This document shows, in pieces, positions 1-9,293 of a stretch of DNA of 9,293 bases. The first letter of the stretch is position 1, and each line of letters begins with the position of its first letter. The stretch is taken from contig CP070627.1 of assembly GCA_020355945.1 (NCBI GenBank), positions 1,159,652 through 1,168,944 of the forward strand, in the 5' to 3' direction. The notes below the pieces were generated by a model. It was not told the DNA's origin. It saw only the letters and a program-made list of their open reading frames with translations, and did no database searches. Source of the DNA: Candidatus Aminicenantota bacterium (GTDB lineage Bacteria; Acidobacteriota; Aminicenantia; UBA2199). The translations under genes were made by a program, and so were the position numbers.

Positions 1-3000
1 CATTATATCCCTTTAATATAAAACAAGAAAGCAGCCTGGATGGTTTATCCCTCTGGCTGAGAAAGGAAAGGATCACAATCTATCACTCCATACCCACATT
101 GTACAGGTATTTCACCGGTATGCTTACCGGGGAGGAAGATTTTTCCTCTATTCGTTTTATTGTTTTGGGAGGAGAGGCGGTAAACCGGCGAGATGTTGAA
201 AATTATAAAAACTATTTCCCCGATGATTGTCTATTCATCAATGGGTTGGGACCCACGGAATCCACAGTAACCCTACAGTATTTTATTAATAAAGACTCAG
301 AACTAGCCAGGGAAGCCATTCCTGTGGGCTTCCCCGTACATAGAACCGAAGTGTTTCTAATCGATGAGAATAATGAAGAAGTACATGTCTATGGAATCGG
401 GGAAATCGTTTACAAAAGTGATTACCTGGCATTGGGATATTTGAACCGGCAGGAAAAAGCCAGTGAAGTATTTGTAAAAGACCCTTTAACAGGAACAGGA
501 AAAGGCAGGATTTTTCGCACCGGTGACCTGGGAAGACGCCTGCCCGATGGAAATATTGAATATATCGGCAGAAAAGATTCACAAGTAAAAGTCAGGGGCT
601 ATCGGGTCGAATTGGGAGAAATAGAGAGCCAACTGGATAAAATCAAAGGAATCAAGAAAAGCCTGGTCCTGTGTCCTCAAAATCGTAATCAAGAAAACTA
701 CCTGGCAGCTTATTATGTCAAAGATAAGCAAAAAGAGATCGATGAAACCGAAATAATAAGAATTCTTAAACAATCCTTACCCGGGTATATGATTCCCAAT
801 GTATTTATGAGAATGGAAGCGTTTCCTCTGACACCCAGTGGAAAAATTGACCGACATTCTTTACCTGAACCGGATATTTCTCAATTATTCCCTGAAGAAA
901 AACTGGTAAAACCAGGGAATAGAATAGAAGAAATTTTGCTTGAAACCTGGAAAGAGATATTAAAAGTAGAAAGAATCGGTATAGATTCGGACTTTTTTGA
1001 ATTGGGCGGGCACTCTTTAAAGGCAATCATATTGGTCTCCCAAATACATAAAAAACTGGACGTAAAATTACCGCTGACAGAGATATTTAAGACACCGACA
1101 ATAAGAAGTCTGGCAAGATATATAAAAGAGGCTGCAAAAGATAAATATGTCTCCATTAAAAGTGCGGAAAAGAAAGAATACTATGCATTATCCTCGGCCC
1201 AGCAGAGATTATATATCCTGAAGCAGATGGATTTGCAGGGCACGGGCTACAATATCCCGGGGGTCATGATCCTGGAAGGAGAGGTACAAAAGGAGAGATT
1301 TGAGAATACCGTAAGGGAATTGACTGCCAGGCATGAGAGTTTGCGTACATCCTTTGTCATGGTAGAAGGAGAACCGGTACAAGTGGTTCACCATGAGGTG
1401 GAATTTGAGATTCAATATTTAGCCACAGAGGACACAGAGAATACAGAGGGAACAAGGGGGCTTGCCCCCTTGTATATTGACCCCGCAGCAAGCACTATAA
1501 AGAACTTCATCCGTCCCTTTGATTTATCTCAGGCACCACTGCTGCGGGTTGGCTTGACAAAATCACTCGATAACCGATACATCCTCATGATCGACATGCA
1601 TCACATCATCACGGACGGTACTTCCCTGGAAATATTCGCAAAGGAGTTTATGGCACTCTATGCAGGAGAAGACTTACCGCCATTAAGGCTCCAATATAAA
1701 GATTATTCCCAATGGCAGAATAGTACTAAAGAAAGAGAGACGATAATCAGACAGGAAGAGTACTGGTTGAACCGGTTCCGGGAGGAAATACCGGTGTTGA
1801 ACCTGCCGTTTGATTATCCAAGACCGCAAATACAGGATTTTACCGGAAGCATGGTAAATTTTGAAATCAAAGGTAAAGAGGTGGGGAAACTAAAAGACCT
1901 GGCCCGGGAGGAAGAAACCACCCTGTATATGGTATTACTGTCCATATTCAATATCCTGCTGGCCAAAGTCAGCGGCCAGGAGGATATCGTAATCGGTACT
2001 GCGGCAGCAGGTCGAAGACATGCGGACCTGGAACCTATAATCGGTATGTTTGTAAACACCCTGGCACTGCGAAATTATCCAACAGCAGATAAAACCTACA
2101 GGGACTTTTTAAAGGAGGTAAAAAATAGTACCTTAGATGCCTTTGAAAACCAGGAGTACCTGTTTGAAGACCTTGTGGAACAGGTATCCATCAACAGGGA
2201 TGCCAGCAGGAACCCCCTCTTTGATGTCATGTTTATCCTGCAAAACTTCGGGGGCATGCCCGGTAATATACCGGCAGCAGAGATACCGGGATTGAGGCTG
2301 AAACCCTATGAATACGAGAGTAAAATATCAAAATTTGATATGACTTTAATTGGTGTGGAAAAGGAAGACAGCCTTAGTTTCAAAATCCAATACAGTACAA
2401 AACTTTTTAAAAAGAAGACAATAGAGAGGTTTGTAAATTATTTTAAGAAGATAATATTCTTTGTTGTCGAAATGCCGGACAGTACGATTTCAGAGGCAGA
2501 GATAATATCCGAAGAAGAAAAAAAGCAAATAATAGTTGATTTTAATGCCAGCGCAGTTCCCTATCCAAAAAATAAAGTTATCCATGAATTATTCGAGGAA
2601 CAAGTAGACAGGAACCCGGACAGCACAGCCGTGATTAGCCCGATCATTCATATCACCTACAACCGGTTAAACCGGGAATCCAATCTCCTGGCCGGCCGGC
2701 TGCGGGAAAAAGGTGTCCGGCCTGATACCATTGTGGGCATTATGGTGGAGCGTTCCCTGGAAATGATCCTCGGGATACTGGGAATTTTGAAAGCCAGAGG
2801 AGCTTATTTACCCATTGACACGGATTACCCGGAAGAAAGAAAGCAGTATATGCTCAAAGACAGCGACACCAGGATTGTTTTAACTGCCCGGCAAATCGCA
2901 GATTTCTCTTCCCCGCAGGAGTTTAAAACCTGTCCGAAGGGCGCCTCTTTGTTTGGAATCTGGAATTTGGAATTTGGAATTTCCCCCCACCAGGGGGACC

Positions 3001-6000
3001 AACTGGCCTACATTATCTACACTTCGGGTTCCACAGGTAAACCCAAAGGGGTAATGGTGGAACACGGTTCTGTTGTAAACCTATTATTCGTTTTATCTGC
3101 AGGGTATTCCTTTTCCCAAAGTGACACCTATTTATTAAAGACTTCATATCTTTTTGATGTGTCTGTAACCGAGTTATTCGGTTGGTTTGTCAGGGGTGGC
3201 AGGTTAGTCATAATGGAGAAAGAAGGGGAGAAAGACCCGCAAAAGATATTGGATGTTATCGAAAGAGATAAAATCACTCATATCAATTTTGTCCCCTCCA
3301 TGTTTAATGCTTTCCTGGGGATATTGAACCGGGAAAATATCCGTCAATTATCCGGTTTAAAATACATATTTTTAGCCGGAGAAGTGCTTTTGCCGGGGTT
3401 GGTAAAAAAGTTTAAAAGCCTGGAAACTAAAGTTGAACTGGAAAATTTGTATGGGCCCACTGAAGCTGCGGTTTATGCCAGCAAGTATTCGCTGCAAGAT
3501 TGGCCAGGAGGTGAACGTGTACCCATTGGAAAGCCTTTAGGGAATATCCGGCTTTATATTTTAAATAAGAACCACCGGCTGCAGCCAGTAGGGGTATCGG
3601 GGGAGTTATGCATTGCCGGACCCGGGGCAGCCAGGGGTTATCTAAATAGGCAGGAACTAACCGCAGAGAAATTTGACCGTATTAGACAAAAGTTTTGTGG
3701 GGGTCAAGGGGGCGGTTTTTCAAAAGAGCCCCCTTGCCGCCGGAGGCTGTACAGAACCGGTGACCTCGGTCGTTGGCTCCCTGATGGCAATATCGAATTT
3801 TTAGGCCGAATAGATCGGCAGGTGAAAATCAGGGGCTTTAGAATTGAGTTAGAAGAAATCGAAAATCAATTGTTAGAGCATACCCGGATAAAAGAGGCAA
3901 AGGTAACCGCCCATGAGGATAAAAGCGGTGAAAAGTCTCTCTGTGCTTATGTTGTCAAGACAGGAAAATTTGATGAAACTCCCAATAGCATCGCACTACA
4001 GGAATATTTAACCGGGAAACTCCCCGATTACATGATCCCATCGTATTTCATGGTGCTGGATAAAATCCCTTTAACACCCAATGGCAAAGTGGATATAAAA
4101 GCCTTACCAAAACCTACAGTTCAAACCGGAGACGGGTATACCGGTCCCCGCGATGAAACAGAAGCAAAATTGGTAGAAATATGGTCGAAAATATTGCGTA
4201 CATCTATAGGCATCGATGATAATTTTTTCCGGTTGGGGGGCCATTCGTTAAAGGCAATCCTGATGGTATCTAAGATACACAAGGAATTGAACACAAAGGT
4301 CCTGTTGACAGATGTATTTAAAATGCCAACCATCAGGGGGCTAGCGGGATTTATAAAAGGATTGAAAGAAGATAGATATTCCCCTATGGAAGCATCAGGA
4401 GTAAAGAAATGTTATGCCTTATCTTCGGCTCAGAAGAGATTATATATTCTTCAACAAATGGAACCGGATACCACCGTTTACAACATTTCTGCAGCAGTTT
4501 GGTTGGAAGGAGACCCGGACAGGGAGAAGTTGGAAGAGACTTTCAAAAAGTTGATCAATCGACATGAAAGTTTAAGGACTTCATTTCATATGAAAGAAAG
4601 CCAACCAATACAAAAGATACATGAACAGGTGGAATTTGAAATTGAATATTATTCAACCACAGAGGGAACAAGGGGGCTTGTCCCCTTGTCTATTGACCCT
4701 GCAGCTCGCAGCTCGCAGCTCGCAGCAAGCACTATAAAGAACTTCATCAAGCCTTTTGATCTTTCTCAACCACCGCTGGTGCGTGTGGGGTTGATACACA
4801 CCCCGCCCCTGACGGGGCACTCCTCTCTAGAGGGGAACTGCCAGGATAAACATATCTTGATGGTAGACATGCATCATATCATATCTGACGGCATCTCTGT
4901 AGGGATATTTTTTAAAGAGTTTACAGCCCTTTATGCAGGCGAAAACCTGCCCCCTCTTCATAAGCAGTACAAAGATTTTTCAGAATGGCAGAACCGGGAG
5001 AAGGAAAAAGAATCCGTAAAAAGACAGGAAGAGTACTGGTTAAAAGAGTTTACAGGAGAGATACCGGTACTGGAACTGCCTGTTGATTATCCCCGGCCGG
5101 CAGTACAGGATTTTGAAGGAAGCAGCCAGAGATTTGAAATAGATGCAAAGGAGACAACCGAATTAAAAGCACTGGCACTGCAAGAAGGAGCCACCCTGTT
5201 TATTGTCATGCTGGCCATCTGTAATGCCTGGTTATCAAGGTTAAGCGGCCAGGAAGACATCATTGTGGGAACAGTTACAGCAGGACGGAAGGATGAGGAT
5301 TTCCAGTCTATCATTGGTATGTTTGTCAACACCTTAGCATTAAGGAATTACCCTGCCCCGGGAAAAACCTTTAAAGAATTCCTTGAGGAAGTCAAAGAGA
5401 GAACCTTAGCCGCATTTGACAACCAGGACTACCCATTTGAAGACCTGGTTGACCGGCTGTCCTGCAGCAGGGATCTTTCAAGGAATCCGGTGTTTGATGT
5501 CATGTTCACGCTCCAGGACATGAAGGATCCCGGACCGGAGATAAAAACCGCTTCAATTGATTTAAAGGTAATCCCTTATAAGCAGGAAAGCAAAACAGCG
5601 AAATTTGACCTGGGATTGAATGGTGTGGAAGTTGAACAAGGTTTGGTCTTCAACGTTGAATACCGCACGAAATTATTCAAAAAAACAACACTGCAAAGAT
5701 TTATTCATTATTTTCAAAAGATCGTATCCAATGTTATCCGGGACCCGGACCAGGAAATCCTGGAAATAGAGATCATATCTGAAGAAGAAAAAAACCAGGT
5801 ATTATTTGATTTTAATCGTACAGCGGTGGAATATCCGAAGAATAAGTTGATCCATGAATTGTTTGCAGGGTATGTGGCCGCAACCCCCGATAATATTGCC
5901 GTTGTCGGACCATTGCCAATAAAATATAGGAGTTATATGACCTATATGACCTATATTTCTTACCGGGAATTAAATGAGAAATCCCTTCAACTGGCCCAAC

Positions 6001-9000
6001 TTCTGCGGGTAAAAGGTGTCGGACCCGGTAGTATCGTTGGAATAAAGATGCAACGCTCCATGGATATGATCGCTGCCATCCTGGGAATACTAAAAGCCGG
6101 CGCTGCCTATTTACCCATTGACCCGGATTACCCGCAAGACAGAATAAAATACATGTTAAAAGACAGCGGCGCGAAAATTTTATTGTCCGAAGGACGCCAT
6201 CCTGACTTCCCGGTTTCCCAGCTTCCCAGCTTCCCAGCTTCCCTCCCTTCCAGCCTGGCCTACATCATCTACACCTCCGGTTCTACAGGAAAGCCAAAGG
6301 GAGTCATGATAGAACATCGAAATGTTGTCAGGTTAGTAAAAAATTCAAACTATATTAATCTTACCAGAAAAGACAAACTGCTGATGACAGGTTCTATTGC
6401 ATTTGATATTACCACTTTCGAAATATGGGGTTCATTGTTGAATGGATTAAGCTTATACCTGGTTGATGAAAGTTTCATTTTAGATGCTGAAAAGTTAGAA
6501 AAGGTGATTGCCGGATATAAAATTTCGATCTTACATTTAATTCCCCAATTATTTAATCAATTGGCCTCCCAGGGACTTGAATTATTTGCGCCCCTCAAGT
6601 ATTTGCTGGTTGGAGGTGACCTGGTCCATCCCCGACATATTAATGTTTTAAGAAATAAGTACAAACATATAAAAATTCTTCATATGTATGGTCCCACGGA
6701 AAACACCACATTTTCTACATTTTTCCCCCTGGATAATGATGACTGCAAATCAAGTATACCCCTGGGGAAACCTATTAGCAATTCAGCGGTATACATTCTC
6801 GATCAATACAACCGATTGCAGCCCCCGGGATTAATGGGAGAATTGTGTGTAAGTGGTGACGGGGTTGCCAGGGGCTATTTGAACAACCCGGAGTTAACAG
6901 CAGAAAAATTTGTAGAACTAAAGCTCTATATGTCCCATACGTCCCATACGTCCCATACGTCCTATATGTCCTATATTTACAAAACCGGTGACCTTGGTCG
7001 TTGGCTCCCTGGTGGTAATATCGAATTTTTAGGCCGAATGGACCAACAGGTAAAAATAAGAGGAATTAGAATCGAACCGGGAGAAATAGAAAATCAATTG
7101 TTGAAGCATGATGATATAAAAGAAGCCGTTGTCCTGGACAGGGAAGAAGGTCCGGGTGGGTCACCCACAGGGTGGGGGGACAAATATCTCTGCGCTTATA
7201 TCGTTCCCAGCAGTGTAGACACAGCAGGATTAAGAGAATATTTATCCGGTGTATTACCTGACTATATGGTACCCTCATATTTTGTACCAATAGAAAAAAT
7301 ACCTTTAACCCCCACCGGCAAACTAGACCGTAAAGCACTGCCTGGACCTGAGATTAGAGCCGCAGCCGGGTATGCTGCCCCGCGGAATAAAATCGAAAAA
7401 AAATTGGTAGAAATATGGTCGCAAATATTAGGTAGAGACGCATTGCATGCGTCTCAATTGCGTACATCTTTAGGCATTGATGATAATTTTTTTGAGTTGG
7501 GTGGACACTCATTAAAAGCAGCCATCATGGCAGCGAAAATTCGCAAAGAATTTAATGTAAACCTTTCCCTAAAAGAAATATTTAAACAACCCTTCATAAG
7601 GGGATTATCCCAATGCATTGAAATCGGTGTGAAAGATAAATTCACATCAATAGAACTAGCAGAAGAAAAAGAATACTATGCCTTATCCTCAGCCCAGCAA
7701 AGGTTATTTATTTTGCAGCAAATGGAAGCGGTAGGAACAGGATACAACATGCCGGCAGTCATGGTCCTGGAAGGAGAAGTAGATAAGACGAAACTGGAAA
7801 AGACATCCCAGGAGTTGATCAAAAGGCATGAAAGCCTGAGAACCTTATTTGAAATGAAAGAAGAAGAACCGGTACAGCGGGTCCGCCTTCACAGGGATAT
7901 AAAATTTTATATTGAATATTATGACCCAGCCGCAGGGGGTCAGCATCCCTCATCCATCATTCATCATTTTGTCCGTCCCTTTGACCTGTCACAAGCACCG
8001 CTGTTCAGGATTGGTTTCATCAAAATAGAGGAAACCAAACACATATTGATGGTGGATATGCACCATATTGTTTCCGATGGGACCTCTATAAGGATATTGG
8101 TAGAGGATTTCATGGCCCTTTACGGAGGCAGCACATTACCCGGACTGGGAATCCGGTATAAAGATTTTTCCCAATGGCAAAAGTCAGCGAAAAGAAAAAA
8201 ATATCCCAGGAAACAGGAAGAATACTGGCTCAAATTGTTTGAAGAAGAGATACCAGTACTGGATTTGCCCACAGATTTTTTGCGGCCTGAAGTACAACGT
8301 TTTGAAGGAAAGCATACCCGGTTTGAAATAGGAAAAGAAGATACCGAAGCATTAAAAACATTGGCATTACAAGAAGGAGCAACCCTGTATATGGTATTGT
8401 TGTCTATATATAATATATTGTTATCAAAGGTAAGCAGCCAGGAAGATATAATCGTAGGGTCACCGGTATCAGGACGCACACATGCGGATTTACACCAAAT
8501 CATCGGCATGTTTGTCAATACCCTGCCCCTCAGGAACAAACCCGAAAGCAAGAAAACTTGCATAGAATTTCTAAAAGAAGTTCGTACCAGGGCATTAGAG
8601 GCATTTGAGAACCAGGAATACCCCTTTGAAGACCTGGTGGAAAAAGTATCAATAAACCGCGATGCCTCACGCAACCCCTTATTCGATGTCATGTTTGCTT
8701 TACAAAACACGGAAACATTGGAATTGGAAATCCCCGGCCTGAAATTAAAACCCTATGAATTTGAAAATAGAACATCCAAATTTGACTTAAACTTAACCGC
8801 AGTAGAAACAGCAAAAGGTTTAACCTTTACCTGGGAATACAGTACAAAACTGTTCAAACAAGAAACGATCGAACGATTTATTGGTTATCTTAACACAATC
8901 GTCTCATCCGTAACGGCAAATCCCGGTAAAAAAATCCAGGAAATAGAGATCATATCCGAAGAAGAGAAACACCGGGTATTGTACGAATTGAACGATACCC

Positions 9001-9293
9001 GGGCCGCATACCCCAAAGACAAGGTGATCCATCAATTATTTGCAGAACAGGTGGAACAGACCCCGGATAATATTGCTGTAATTGGCATGGACCATGAACC
9101 AGGGGCCATGGAGAAGCACTTAGAGGGAACAAGGGGGCTTGCCCCCTTGTATATTACTTACCGGGAATTAAATAAAAAGTCCAGTCAACTGGCCCATATA
9201 CTAATAGAAAAAGGCGTCAAGCCTGATACGATTGTAGGAATTATGATAGATCGTTCCCCGCAGGCGATTATCGGGATTTTGGGAATACTGAAA
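1..9293 (+). CDS. Nonribosomal peptide synthetase, internal fragment, partial at both ends
   Basis: This multimodular megasynthase assembles a peptide by thiotemplate chemistry. A domains adenylate amino acids, T (PCP) domains carry them on phosphopantetheine, and C domains form the peptide bonds. The first full codon is at position 3 and the frame is open to the last base, giving 3097 codons without a stop; residue numbers used here equal position divided by 3. The order is A(partial)-T-C-A-T-C-A-T-C-A(partial). All core motifs are recognisable, including TSGSTGKPKG, (Y/L)GPTE, TGDLGR, GGHSL, RHESLRT, HHxxxDG and IGMFVNT. No start, ribosome binding site or stop lies in the window, so the true length and termini are unknown. 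There is no E, MT, KS, Cy or TE domain. Several intradomain loops are filled by short repeats that keep the frame. The protein is probably cytoplasmic, with no signal or membrane segment seen. The product is unknown. NRPS identity is certain; the organism and peptide are not. Confidence 0.98.
3..872 (+). other. Adenylation domain A1, C-terminal part, divergent subtype
   Basis: This domain activates an amino or related acid as an acyl-AMP and loads T1. The window begins after motif A4, so residues 235, 236 and 239 of the specificity code are missing. Visible motifs are A5 as GLGPTE at 243-260, where YGPTE is usual, A6 around 399-449 (GEIVYKSDYLALGYL), A7 as FRTGDLGRR from 513, A8 as GRKDSQVKVRGYRVELGEIE (567-626), and A10 as LTPSGKIDR with the catalytic Lys codon at 843. 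The visible code positions appear to be H (278), V (299), G (301), G (322), V (330), T (331) and K (517). The start of the fragment, YPFNIKQES followed by LWLRKERITIYHSIPT, also differs from A2 and A3. The domain looks active but is a distinct subfamily, so I do not predict a substrate. Unlike A2 and A3 it carries no obvious repeat insert. Confidence 0.93.
912..1133 (+). other. Peptidyl carrier domain T1
   Basis: This thiolation domain of about 74 residues carries the aminoacyl or peptidyl chain on phosphopantetheine. The attachment motif DSDFFELGGHSLKA has its Ser codon at 1014-1016 (residue 338). The helical ends match the family: EEILLETWKEIL at the start and LTEIFKTPTIRSLARYI at the end. 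The GGHSL form, rather than GGDSI, is typical of carriers that deliver directly to an LCL-type C domain without an epimerase, and C1 does follow directly. Confidence 0.95.
1424..1450 (+). repeat. 9-nt tandem repeat, three units, in C1 loop
   Basis: Three 9-nt units read cacagagga, cacagagaa and tacagaggg, encoding TED-TEN-TEG-like residues. The equivalent place in C2 (4658-4666) has a single unit, so C1 carries 18 nt more. A 9-nt unit keeps frame at any copy number. It directly abuts and overlaps the start of the 33-nt element. Confidence 0.85.
1446..1478 (+). repeat. 33-nt palindromic element, copy 1 (in C1)
   Basis: The core is a perfect inverted repeat: arm ACAAGGGGGC at 1452-1461, a 2-nt centre (tt), and arm GCCCCCTTGT at 1464-1473. 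It is flanked by gaggga on the left and atatt on the right. It is translated in frame as EGTRGLAPLYI. The 33 nt are identical to copy 3 at 9123-9155, although that copy lies in an A domain. The core has no stop codon in any of the six frames. Confidence 0.93.
2955..2982 (+). repeat. 7-nt tandem repeat (ggaattt), four units, in A2 loop
   Basis: The units are ggaatct once and ggaattt three times. They encode the stretch GIWNLEFGI just before motif A3. It is followed by a 5-bp inverted repeat (ccccc 2984-2988, ggggg 2993-2997). The loop holding it is about 40 residues in A2 against 23 in A3. Confidence 0.88.
3705..3736 (+). repeat. Palindrome with the same 9-bp arms, in A2 before motif A7
   Basis: Arm CAAGGGGGC is at 3705-3713 and GCCCCCTTG at 3728-3736, separated by a 14-nt loop that itself contains a t-run and an a-run. 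The arms equal the inner nine bases of the 33-nt element, but here the codons are caa-ggg-ggc instead of aca-agg-ggg, so another frame is used (QGGGF...EPPC). It lies in the variable loop between AEKF and YRTGD. Confidence 0.88.
4143..4364 (+). other. Peptidyl carrier domain T2
   Basis: This carrier domain belongs to the first complete module. The motif DDNFFRLGGHSLKA has its Ser codon at 4245-4247 (residue 1415). Arg replaces the usual Glu in FFELGG; this is a non-catalytic change. The downstream helix ends in FKMPTIRGLAGFI. Its start, KLVEIWSKILRTSIGIDD, is the short uninterrupted version of the sequence that carries a 30-nt insert in T3. Confidence 0.95.
4662..4694 (+). repeat. 33-nt palindromic element, copy 2 (in C2)
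   Basis: This copy sits at the same C-domain loop as copy 1 and differs at a few bases (cttgt for cttgc in the centre, tct for tat near the end). It is read as EGTRGLVPLSI. The remaining perfect arms are ACAAGGGG (4668-4675) and CCCCTTGT (4682-4689). It lies exactly 3216 nt from copy 1, which is 1072 codons. Confidence 0.93.
4701..4725 (+). repeat. 7-nt tandem repeat (gcagctc), three units plus partial, in C2 loop
   Basis: Three gcagctc units (4701-4721) are followed by a partial gcag. At the homologous site C1 reads gaccccgcag then caagcac, while C2 reads gaccctgcag, three ctcgcag units, then caagcac. The difference is exactly 21 nt, or 7 codons, so the frame is preserved only because three heptamers are present. 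Confidence 0.92.
4802..4837 (+). repeat. Paired short palindromes in C2 loop
   Basis: The first palindrome has arms gcccc (4805-4809) and ggggc (4814-4818). The second is a near-palindrome centred on ctag, cctctct (4822-4828) opposite agagggg (4829-4835), with one G-T pair. The encoded TPPLTGHSSLEG is absent from C1 and C3, whose loops between VGL/IGF and YIL/HIL are 7 residues against 19 here. Confidence 0.85.
5934..5957 (+). repeat. 9-nt repeat (tatatgacc), two units plus partial, in A3 N-terminal loop
   Basis: Two tatatgacc units and a partial third (tatat) encode YMTYMTYIS between AVVG and YRELN. The unit resembles the tatatgtcc-like unit at 6932-6976. The loop is 18 residues here, 7 in A2 and 25 in A4. 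Confidence 0.85.
6215..6243 (+). repeat. 8-nt tandem repeat (ttcccagc), three units plus partial, in A3 loop
   Basis: Three perfect ttcccagc units (6215-6238) plus ttccc encode a Ser-, Pro- and Phe-rich stretch (SQLPSFPAS) just before SLAYIIYTSG. The three 8-nt units total 24 nt, which keeps frame. This is the same loop that holds the ggaattt repeat in A2. Confidence 0.9.
6932..6976 (+). repeat. 9-nt tandem repeat, five units, in A3 before motif A7
   Basis: Three gtcccatac units are followed by two gtcctatat units, 45 nt in all. They encode the repetitive peptide SHT-SHT-SHT-SYM-SYI immediately before YKTGDLGRW. The site is the same loop that holds the long palindrome in A2. Confidence 0.93.
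7156..7168 (+). repeat. 13-nt perfect palindrome in A3 C-terminal subdomain
   Basis: Arms gtgggt (7156-7161) and acccac (7163-7168) surround a single c. It encodes part of GPGGSPTGWG between VVLDREE and KYLCAYIV. A2 has the shorter HEDKSGEK at this place, so this is probably another loop insert. Confidence 0.75.
7377..7628 (+). other. Peptidyl carrier domain T3 with 10-residue insert
   Basis: This carrier domain belongs to the second complete module. DDNFFELGGHSLKA has its Ser codon at 7509-7511 (residue 2503). It is ten codons longer than T2: between WSQI and LRTSLGIDD it has the extra residues LGRDALHASQ, encoded by a palindrome-bearing insert at 7428-7457. The insert falls in the loop after the first helix, ahead of the phosphopantetheine site. 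The remainder, through LKEIFKQPFIRGLSQCI, is normal. Confidence 0.94.
7428..7457 (+). repeat. 30-nt palindrome-bearing insert in T3
   Basis: Comparison with T2 (ata-ttg-cgt-aca-tct at 4191-4205) shows exactly ten extra codons here, between ata and ttg-cgt-aca-tct. The insert contains a perfect inverted repeat, arm gagacgcat (7435-7443) and arm atgcgtctc (7447-7455) with a tgc centre. It is translated as LGRDALHASQ. Confidence 0.93.
7671..8975 (+). other. Condensation domain C3, probable LCL type
   Basis: This domain condenses the chain on T3 with the amino acid loaded by the module that begins with A4. Motifs are ALSSAQQRLFIL (from 7680), RHESLRTLF (from 7824), MHHIVSDG with HHxxxDG at 8061-8081, YKDFSQWQ, IGMFVNTLPLR (from 8502) and RDASRNPLFDVMF near 8659-8697. 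At about 435 residues it is the shortest of the three C domains because it lacks the 33-nt palindromic element. Its loop runs directly from IEYY to DPAAGG, so it serves as a near-empty reference site for C1 and C2. That loop still holds a short cat-rich stretch (7944-7967). Confidence 0.95.
7944..7967 (+). repeat. Low-complexity cat-rich stretch in C3 loop
   Basis: An irregular run of catc and catt units encodes HPSSIIHH in the same C-domain loop that holds the 33-nt element in C1 and C2. An adjacent weak inverted repeat (tgaccc 7922-7927, gggtca 7937-7942) may be chance. Confidence 0.55.
9030..9293 (+). other. Adenylation domain A4, N-terminal part
   Basis: This is the start of the next module's amino acid activating domain. 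It begins with HQLFAEQVEQTPDNIAVIG, continues to ITYRELNKKSSQLAH (motif A1 region) and is cut by the window edge inside motif A2 (GILGILK). No specificity residues are visible. The loop between AV and ITYREL is 25 residues, against 7 in A2. The extra length includes a complete copy of the 33-nt palindromic element, translated as EGTRGLAPLYI exactly as in C1. Confidence 0.94.
9123..9155 (+). repeat. 33-nt palindromic element, copy 3 (in A4)
   Basis: This copy is identical over 33 nt to copy 1, with arm ACAAGGGGGC at 9129-9138 and arm GCCCCCTTGT at 9141-9150. It is read as EGTRGLAPLYI in the N-terminal loop of A4. The host domain is a different fold from the C domains that hold copies 1 and 2, so shared ancestry of the protein cannot explain it. 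A smaller palindrome (catgg 9086-9090, ccatg 9092-9096) lies just upstream. Confidence 0.94.

Follow-up and report, generated by a model that had tools for sequence, protein, structure and literature searches.

How does one short palindromic DNA element come to be read in frame at non-homologous places of a single enzyme gene? The stretch of DNA analysed here (the window, 9,293 nucleotides) is a single open frame of 3,097 codons, part of a multimodular nonribosomal peptide synthetase (NRPS). Its coding content is NRPS only, with domain matches to three condensation (C), four adenylation (A) and three carrier domains. NRPS modules are large, mutually similar and recombining. An earlier note, made from the letters of the DNA, described a palindromic element lying in frame in two C domains and one A domain of this gene, and proposed that it is a REP- or MITE-like palindrome tolerated inside the megasynthase. 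We asked what this element is, whether its DNA was copied, and by which route it may have reached its present sites.

Copying of the element's DNA among non-homologous loops of a single gene

The in-frame element was confirmed at all three sites, with an extent of 34 nt (Table 1). The 34-mer is identical in copies 1 and 3 and carries two mismatches in copy 2, both of which alter the amino acid (A to V and Y to S), and no match to it was found in any of 200 shuffled sequences. It contains the palindrome ACAAGGGGGC-TT-GCCCCCTTGT, whose arms are 10 bp long at 1452-1473 and 9129-9150, with 8 bp kept at 4668-4689. The codon-phase check upheld the described reading EGTRGL(A/V)PL, since all three copies start in phase 0, at 1446, 4662 and 9123, and read EGTRGLAPL, EGTRGLVPL and EGTRGLAPL, respectively. 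Alignment of the window's modules, from which the loop positions of the copies were assigned, likewise places 1446 and 4662 in the C loop and 9123 in the A domain. Copies 1 and 3 lose their identity abruptly at either end, and the 34-mer is the sole exact 20-mer common to non-homologous positions of the window, tandem arrays excepted. The element is missing from C domain 3, and a solved homologue, linear gramicidin synthase subunit A, has a gap opposite the inserted stretch of the C domain.

Table 1. Repeats and palindromes located in the window
Feature	Position	Strand	Location or remark
Tandem repeat, period 9 (CACAGAGGA)	1424-1449	+	directly 5' of copy 1
Short palindromic element, copy 1, EGTRGLAPLYI	1445-1478	+	C-domain loop, module 1; palindrome 1452-1473
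28-nt run, identical to 4721-4748	1484-1511	+	just 3' of copy 1; within the patch that C domains 1 and 2 have in common
Long-loop palindrome, arms 3705-3713 and 3728-3736	3700-3741	+	module 1 A-domain loop before YRTGD; other codon phase
Short palindromic element, copy 2, two differences, EGTRGLVPLSI	4661-4694	+	C-domain loop, module 2; palindrome 4668-4689
Tandem repeat, period 7 (GCAGCTC)	4701-4726	+	3' of copy 2, same loop
28-nt run, identical to 1484-1511	4721-4748	+	within the patch that C domains 1 and 2 have in common
Tandem repeat, period 9 (TATATGACC)	5934-5956	+	module 2 A-domain loop equivalent to the copy 3 loop of module 3
Tandem repeat, period 9 (ATACGTCCC)	6928-6975	+	module 2 A-domain loop equivalent to the long-palindrome loop of module 1
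Palindrome, 9-bp arms, 3-nt loop	7435-7455	+	linker before carrier domain, module 2
Short palindromic element, copy 3, same sequence as copy 1	9122-9155	+	N-terminal part of module 3 A domain

The palindrome is not implied by the peptide EGTRGLAPL, and the same codons occur at non-homologous sites. Under the codon usage of the window, EGTRGLAPL coded twice independently would give the same DNA with a probability of 1.4e-5, and a stem of at least 9 arises in 0.05% of 20,000 synonymous codings of this peptide. Across the window, three hairpins have arms of at least 9, whereas 60 synonymous permutations average 0.4 and never exceed 2; for arms of at least 8 the excess is weaker (6 against a mean of 1.7 and a maximum of 6). 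As identical codons, and not merely an identical peptide, are present in the copies, the element has been copied as DNA within one gene, between loops that are not homologous, supporting the earlier claim that the identity stems from copying of DNA rather than from protein descent.

Around the element, the C loops of module 1 and module 2 share a local patch of DNA. A comparison of the two C domains gives a DNA identity of 94% in this loop and 63% and 64% on either side of it, and shared residues use the same codon in 17 of 19 cases in the loop versus 24 of 46 and 116 of 211 on the sides (p=0.003); without the element's own eight shared codons the contrast becomes 9/11 versus 140/257 (p=0.12). 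The patch exceeds the element, because a 28-nt identical run follows it. Simple duplication of modules, by which the element would have been inherited together with them, fits the homologous C-loop position and the similar flanks of copies 1 and 2, but it is already contradicted by copy 3 in an A domain, and the low identity of C domains 1 and 2 elsewhere and the lack of the element in C domain 3 also speak against it. We regard it as highly improbable. The earlier note had set against mobility the case of an element confined to NRPS loops and explained by module duplication alone; within the data searched the element indeed seems limited to NRPS loops, but duplication alone cannot reach non-homologous sites.

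A fourth palindrome, absent from the earlier sequence-only description, lies at 3700-3741. Its 9-nt arms, CAAGGGGGC and GCCCCCTTG, are the same as those of the short element and enclose a 14-nt loop. CAAGGGGGC occurs at four places in the window (1453, 3705, 4669 and 9130) with a palindrome at every one, and its codon phase is 0 at 3705 and 1 at the other three. The short form could be the long palindrome minus its hairpin loop.

It had also been stated that the palindromic core has no stop codon in any of six frames and encodes nearly the same peptide in either orientation. The whole 33-mers at 1446 and 9123 are indeed open in all six frames, and that at 4662 has a stop in one minus frame, in its flank. 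Such openness is not very rare, being found in 4.0% of 5,000 33-mer shuffles and in 4.3% of the window's own 33-mers. The second part stands, one minus frame reading TRGQAPL. The plus-strand hairpin energies of the three copies have z values of -1.9, -0.9 and -2.9. A terminator role was considered and rejected, the window having 14 terminator-like sites, copies 1 and 3 among them, versus a shuffle mean of 11.1 (sd 3.9). As to an RNA role, no Rfam match was obtained up to E 1. An AlphaFold model of C domain 1, built from a 3-row alignment, was poor (mean pLDDT 46.3) and was set aside.

The two palindromes in related NRPS proteins

Relatives were gathered by two protein searches (7990 and 3466 matches), and the best 120 matches of each, 240 proteins, were used. 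Among these best-listed relatives, the pattern [EK]GTRGL[AVSPT]PL has 25 occurrences, spread over 17 of 240 proteins (counting that of the window), in the variants EGTRGL(A/V/S/P)PL at three non-homologous loops; judged by flanks, 17 occurrences lie in the C loop, six in an A loop before (I)TYREL and two in an A loop before YRTGD or its equivalent. The carriers listed with an organism, the window aside, are P0032, P0121 and P0177, all Candidatus Aminicenantes. All 25 occurrences of the short element share one reading frame, and patterns for the remaining five found nothing among the 240 listed relatives. We also ran a six-frame alignment test on 240 proteins, with the window's own protein left out and P0241 added (null maximum 37, cut 42), in which 24 of 24 matches of the short element were in one frame; an alignment with a less strict cut gave two lone off-frame scores, in P0120 and P0067, just above the null.

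The long palindrome is distributed differently over frames. Peptides resembling it gave 31 matches in 25 of 240 proteins, 13 in frame +0, five in +1, two in +2, three in -0, eight in -2 and none in -1, the frame assignment of such palindromic peptides being ambiguous for some; when the best frame had to lead the next by 8 or more, 23 of the 31 matches were kept (+0 9, +1 4, +2 0, -0 3, -2 7). Most of the matches precede the TGD motif, and some lie in the C loop, in the N-terminal A loop or in a mid-A loop. The carriers include proteins named Aminicenantes, Acidobacteriota and Candidatus Deferrimicrobium. As the long palindrome appears in both orientations and several frames in relatives, it is DNA, and not one peptide, that seems to recur. 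At the peptide level, the relatives thus show the short element at three different loops and its sister palindrome in both orientations and several frames, and it is from these peptides that copying across proteins would be read. The proposal that the palindrome can sit in coding DNA in either orientation is therefore borne out by the sister palindrome of 3700-3741, whereas the short element was found in one frame and orientation at every occurrence. Free insertion of a palindrome open in six frames would not leave such a fixed frame, unless there were few independent insertions.

Whether the element's distribution over a tree indicates mobility was examined with 712 C domains. The 19 carriers require 17 changes, versus 18.9 in shuffles. 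Control 9-mers have a median of 0.80 changes per carrier versus 0.89 for the element, and 21% of 150 lie at or above it. Scattering on the C tree was dropped as proof of mobility, because the control 9-mers are nearly as scattered. At the A-domain site the comparison is uninformative (5 carriers, 5 changes, 5 in shuffles).

One alternative is selection on the peptide EGTRGLAPL itself, for instance for a role as flexible linker or contact, with the DNA palindrome being secondary. The single frame in 25 of 25 cases agrees with this, as does the near-identity of the peptide in proteins about half identical to the window's over the aligned parts. However, the same codons recur although the sites are not homologous (p 1.4e-5), neither difference of copy 2 is silent, the peptide is missing from the majority of C and A loops (19 of 712 C domains carry it), and the same loops hold quite different repeats. 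Selection of the peptide is consequently an unlikely explanation in our judgement.

A dispersed mobile family and known palindromic repeats

The strongest competitor is a genome-wide mobile palindrome (REP-, MITE- or RPE-like) that is moved in trans by an enzyme, is mostly intergenic and is here tolerated in frame. It would account for a copied 34 nt with sharp ends, for an asymmetric, REP-like head 5' of the hairpin, for the two orientations of the sister palindrome in relatives, and for the 4-nt direct repeat ACTT that flanks copy 3 on both sides (9118-9159), as a target-site duplication would leave. Nevertheless, no flanking direct repeat is seen at copies 1 and 2, and 34+4 nt is not a multiple of 3.

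Exact matches were sought in a genome collection described as one genome per species (84,980 species), in which the exact 25-mer has one locus, in a proteobacterial MAG (G001), with unrelated flanks. This genome has its own repeat family of about 100 nt (L002-L008) with two hairpins, one of which has the same 20-nt core. Palindromes of this type were found in 8 of 61 other genomes, so the core alone is easily reached independently. In another genome, G047, nine forward and 12 reverse core matches with at most 2 mismatches were counted, with varying central bases (0 for the reversed control). The long palindrome, at up to 2 mismatches, was found in none of 199 genomes related to G047. Of 20 ordinary-sized candidates (132-420 aa) for composite peptides, only one passed E<=10, and this was an NRPS condensation fragment, which argues against a wide spread in ordinary proteins of 132-420 aa and is silent on intergenic DNA. 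In plasmids and phages the short element gave short matches only (best E 2 and 0.06, respectively), while the long palindrome reached E about 6 in plasmids and was not matched in phages. Viral contigs had no match to the 22-mer, no NRPS relative and no long palindrome; the 20-nt core occurs in one contig, just 3' of a reading frame, and a degenerate pattern has one match.

REPs of the two described super-families bear a GTAG or CGTC tag, and REPs inside genes are known (PMC3733652). The window element resembles them as a short hairpin with a one-sided head, but inspection of the copies and their flanks revealed neither GTAG nor CGTC at the hairpin end. MITEs, as described in PMC2229807 and PMC10969869, are short, have inverted repeats and can fuse in frame to genes, whereas the window element is much shorter and shows no uniform target-site duplication, with ACTT on both sides of copy 3 and nothing comparable at copies 1 and 2. 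Given the missing tag, the single exact 25-mer match with its unrelated repeat, and the one passing protein being an NRPS fragment, the dispersed REP or MITE family suggested by the earlier note finds no support in the data searched, and we consider a genome-wide mobile palindrome possible but doubtful.

The nearest known kind is the Rickettsia palindromic element (RPE). In the accounts of PMC2229807 and PMC10969869, RPEs are palindromic DNA lying in frame in protein genes and adding an extra peptide, and one insert-bearing enzyme that was assayed was active; they measure 105-146 bp (about 150 bp in the review) and occur in unrelated genes and intergenically. The window's palindromic DNA also lies in frame in a protein gene, but it measures 34 and about 42 nt, well below 105-150 bp, and was seen in NRPS loops alone and in another phylum. 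The PARCELs of PMC2996958 are palindromic DNA encoding repeated protein segments, with tandem 25-residue amphipathic repeats, whereas the window has single inserts of 9-11 residues. The inverted repeats that PMC6649704 describes in translated genes of Nematomorpha mitochondria share that setting with the window's palindromes; they reach 284 bp and encode conserved parts, whereas those of the window are short and lie in variable loops.

Proposed copying of repeats into and between length-variable loops

The palindromes share their loops with other repeats. Homologous loops of the three modules are filled with different repeats, tandem arrays occupy the same loops as the element (Table 1), and these loops are among the positions with most insertions in an alignment of 538 modules. 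Y-x-S repeats before the TGD motif are present in 41 of 533 modules; on the tree of A domains they look scattered when compared with shuffles, at 36 changes versus 38-41 in 20 shuffles. Further in-frame tandem repeats were noticed in variable loops of the window, namely TTTGGAA at 2952-2982, CTTCCCAG at 6206-6243 and CATCCAT at 7944-7967.

We lean, by a modest degree, towards the following explanation as a whole: the window's NRPS would belong to an Aminicenantes-type megasynthase group whose length-variable loops collect palindromes and 7-9-nt tandem repeats, and short palindromes and tandem repeats would be copied into and between these loops, with in-frame copies surviving. Copying may proceed through short homologies or through the hairpin itself, by gene conversion or template switching, and selection would retain stop-free, in-frame copies where loops tolerate extra residues. 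The fixed frame of the short element may reflect a few original loop insertions followed by exchange of whole loops between modules. In our best reading, the process would work like RPEs on a smaller scale, an analogy of process and not a claim of membership.

A bolder version, which we put forward tentatively as possible but clearly less probable, holds that these are minimal coding palindromes of about 34-60 nt that copy from loop to loop and module to module inside the NRPS family, the frame-locked short form having arisen from the frame-free long form by loss of the hairpin loop; the loops would then be a habitat of selfish DNA.

The growth of variable NRPS loops is little described in the literature that we found: searches on Aminicenantes NRPS repeats, palindromes or gene clusters and on NRPS repeats or insertions gave nothing on topic by title or abstract start, in a scope outside which most subscription journals lie. 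If copying into loops takes place as proposed, the loops keep a record of copying between modules, and in-frame palindromic repeats, best known from Rickettsia, extend to another phylum and to secondary-metabolite enzymes. If repeats regularly enter loops and pass between modules, the loops also mark where extra residues are tolerated, which would be useful for engineering.

Two further explanations carry little weight. The repeats may serve as recombination adapters, identical loop stretches promoting the exchange of module parts. In protein P0192, the C domains starting at residues 34 and 1148 are 93% identical over the 136 residues before the element and 51% identical over the 342 after it, with the drop about 20 residues past the element. 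However, in a comparison of 171 carrier pairs the upstream excess, P0192 aside, is nowhere above 8 points, and in a crude screen of 538 modules, in which many identity jumps reflect a very conserved A-domain stretch, 194 of 1758 jumps (11%) fall in insertion loops that make up 22% of positions. An excess of breakpoints at insertion loops was thus rejected, and we hold such a role to be very unlikely. An artefact of metagenome assembly, for which the repeats and the metagenomic origin might speak, can practically be dismissed, as the frame is open throughout the window and proteins of several origins (ncbi, jgi, ena) contain this peptide too.

One more insert was observed at 4795-4850; it lies in the module 2 C domain and contains two small hairpins (IHTPPLTGHSSLEGNCQ). 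Peptides related to it (HTPTALRGHPSQEG and similar) have 12 occurrences, most of them following RVGL, among 11 of 241 proteins.
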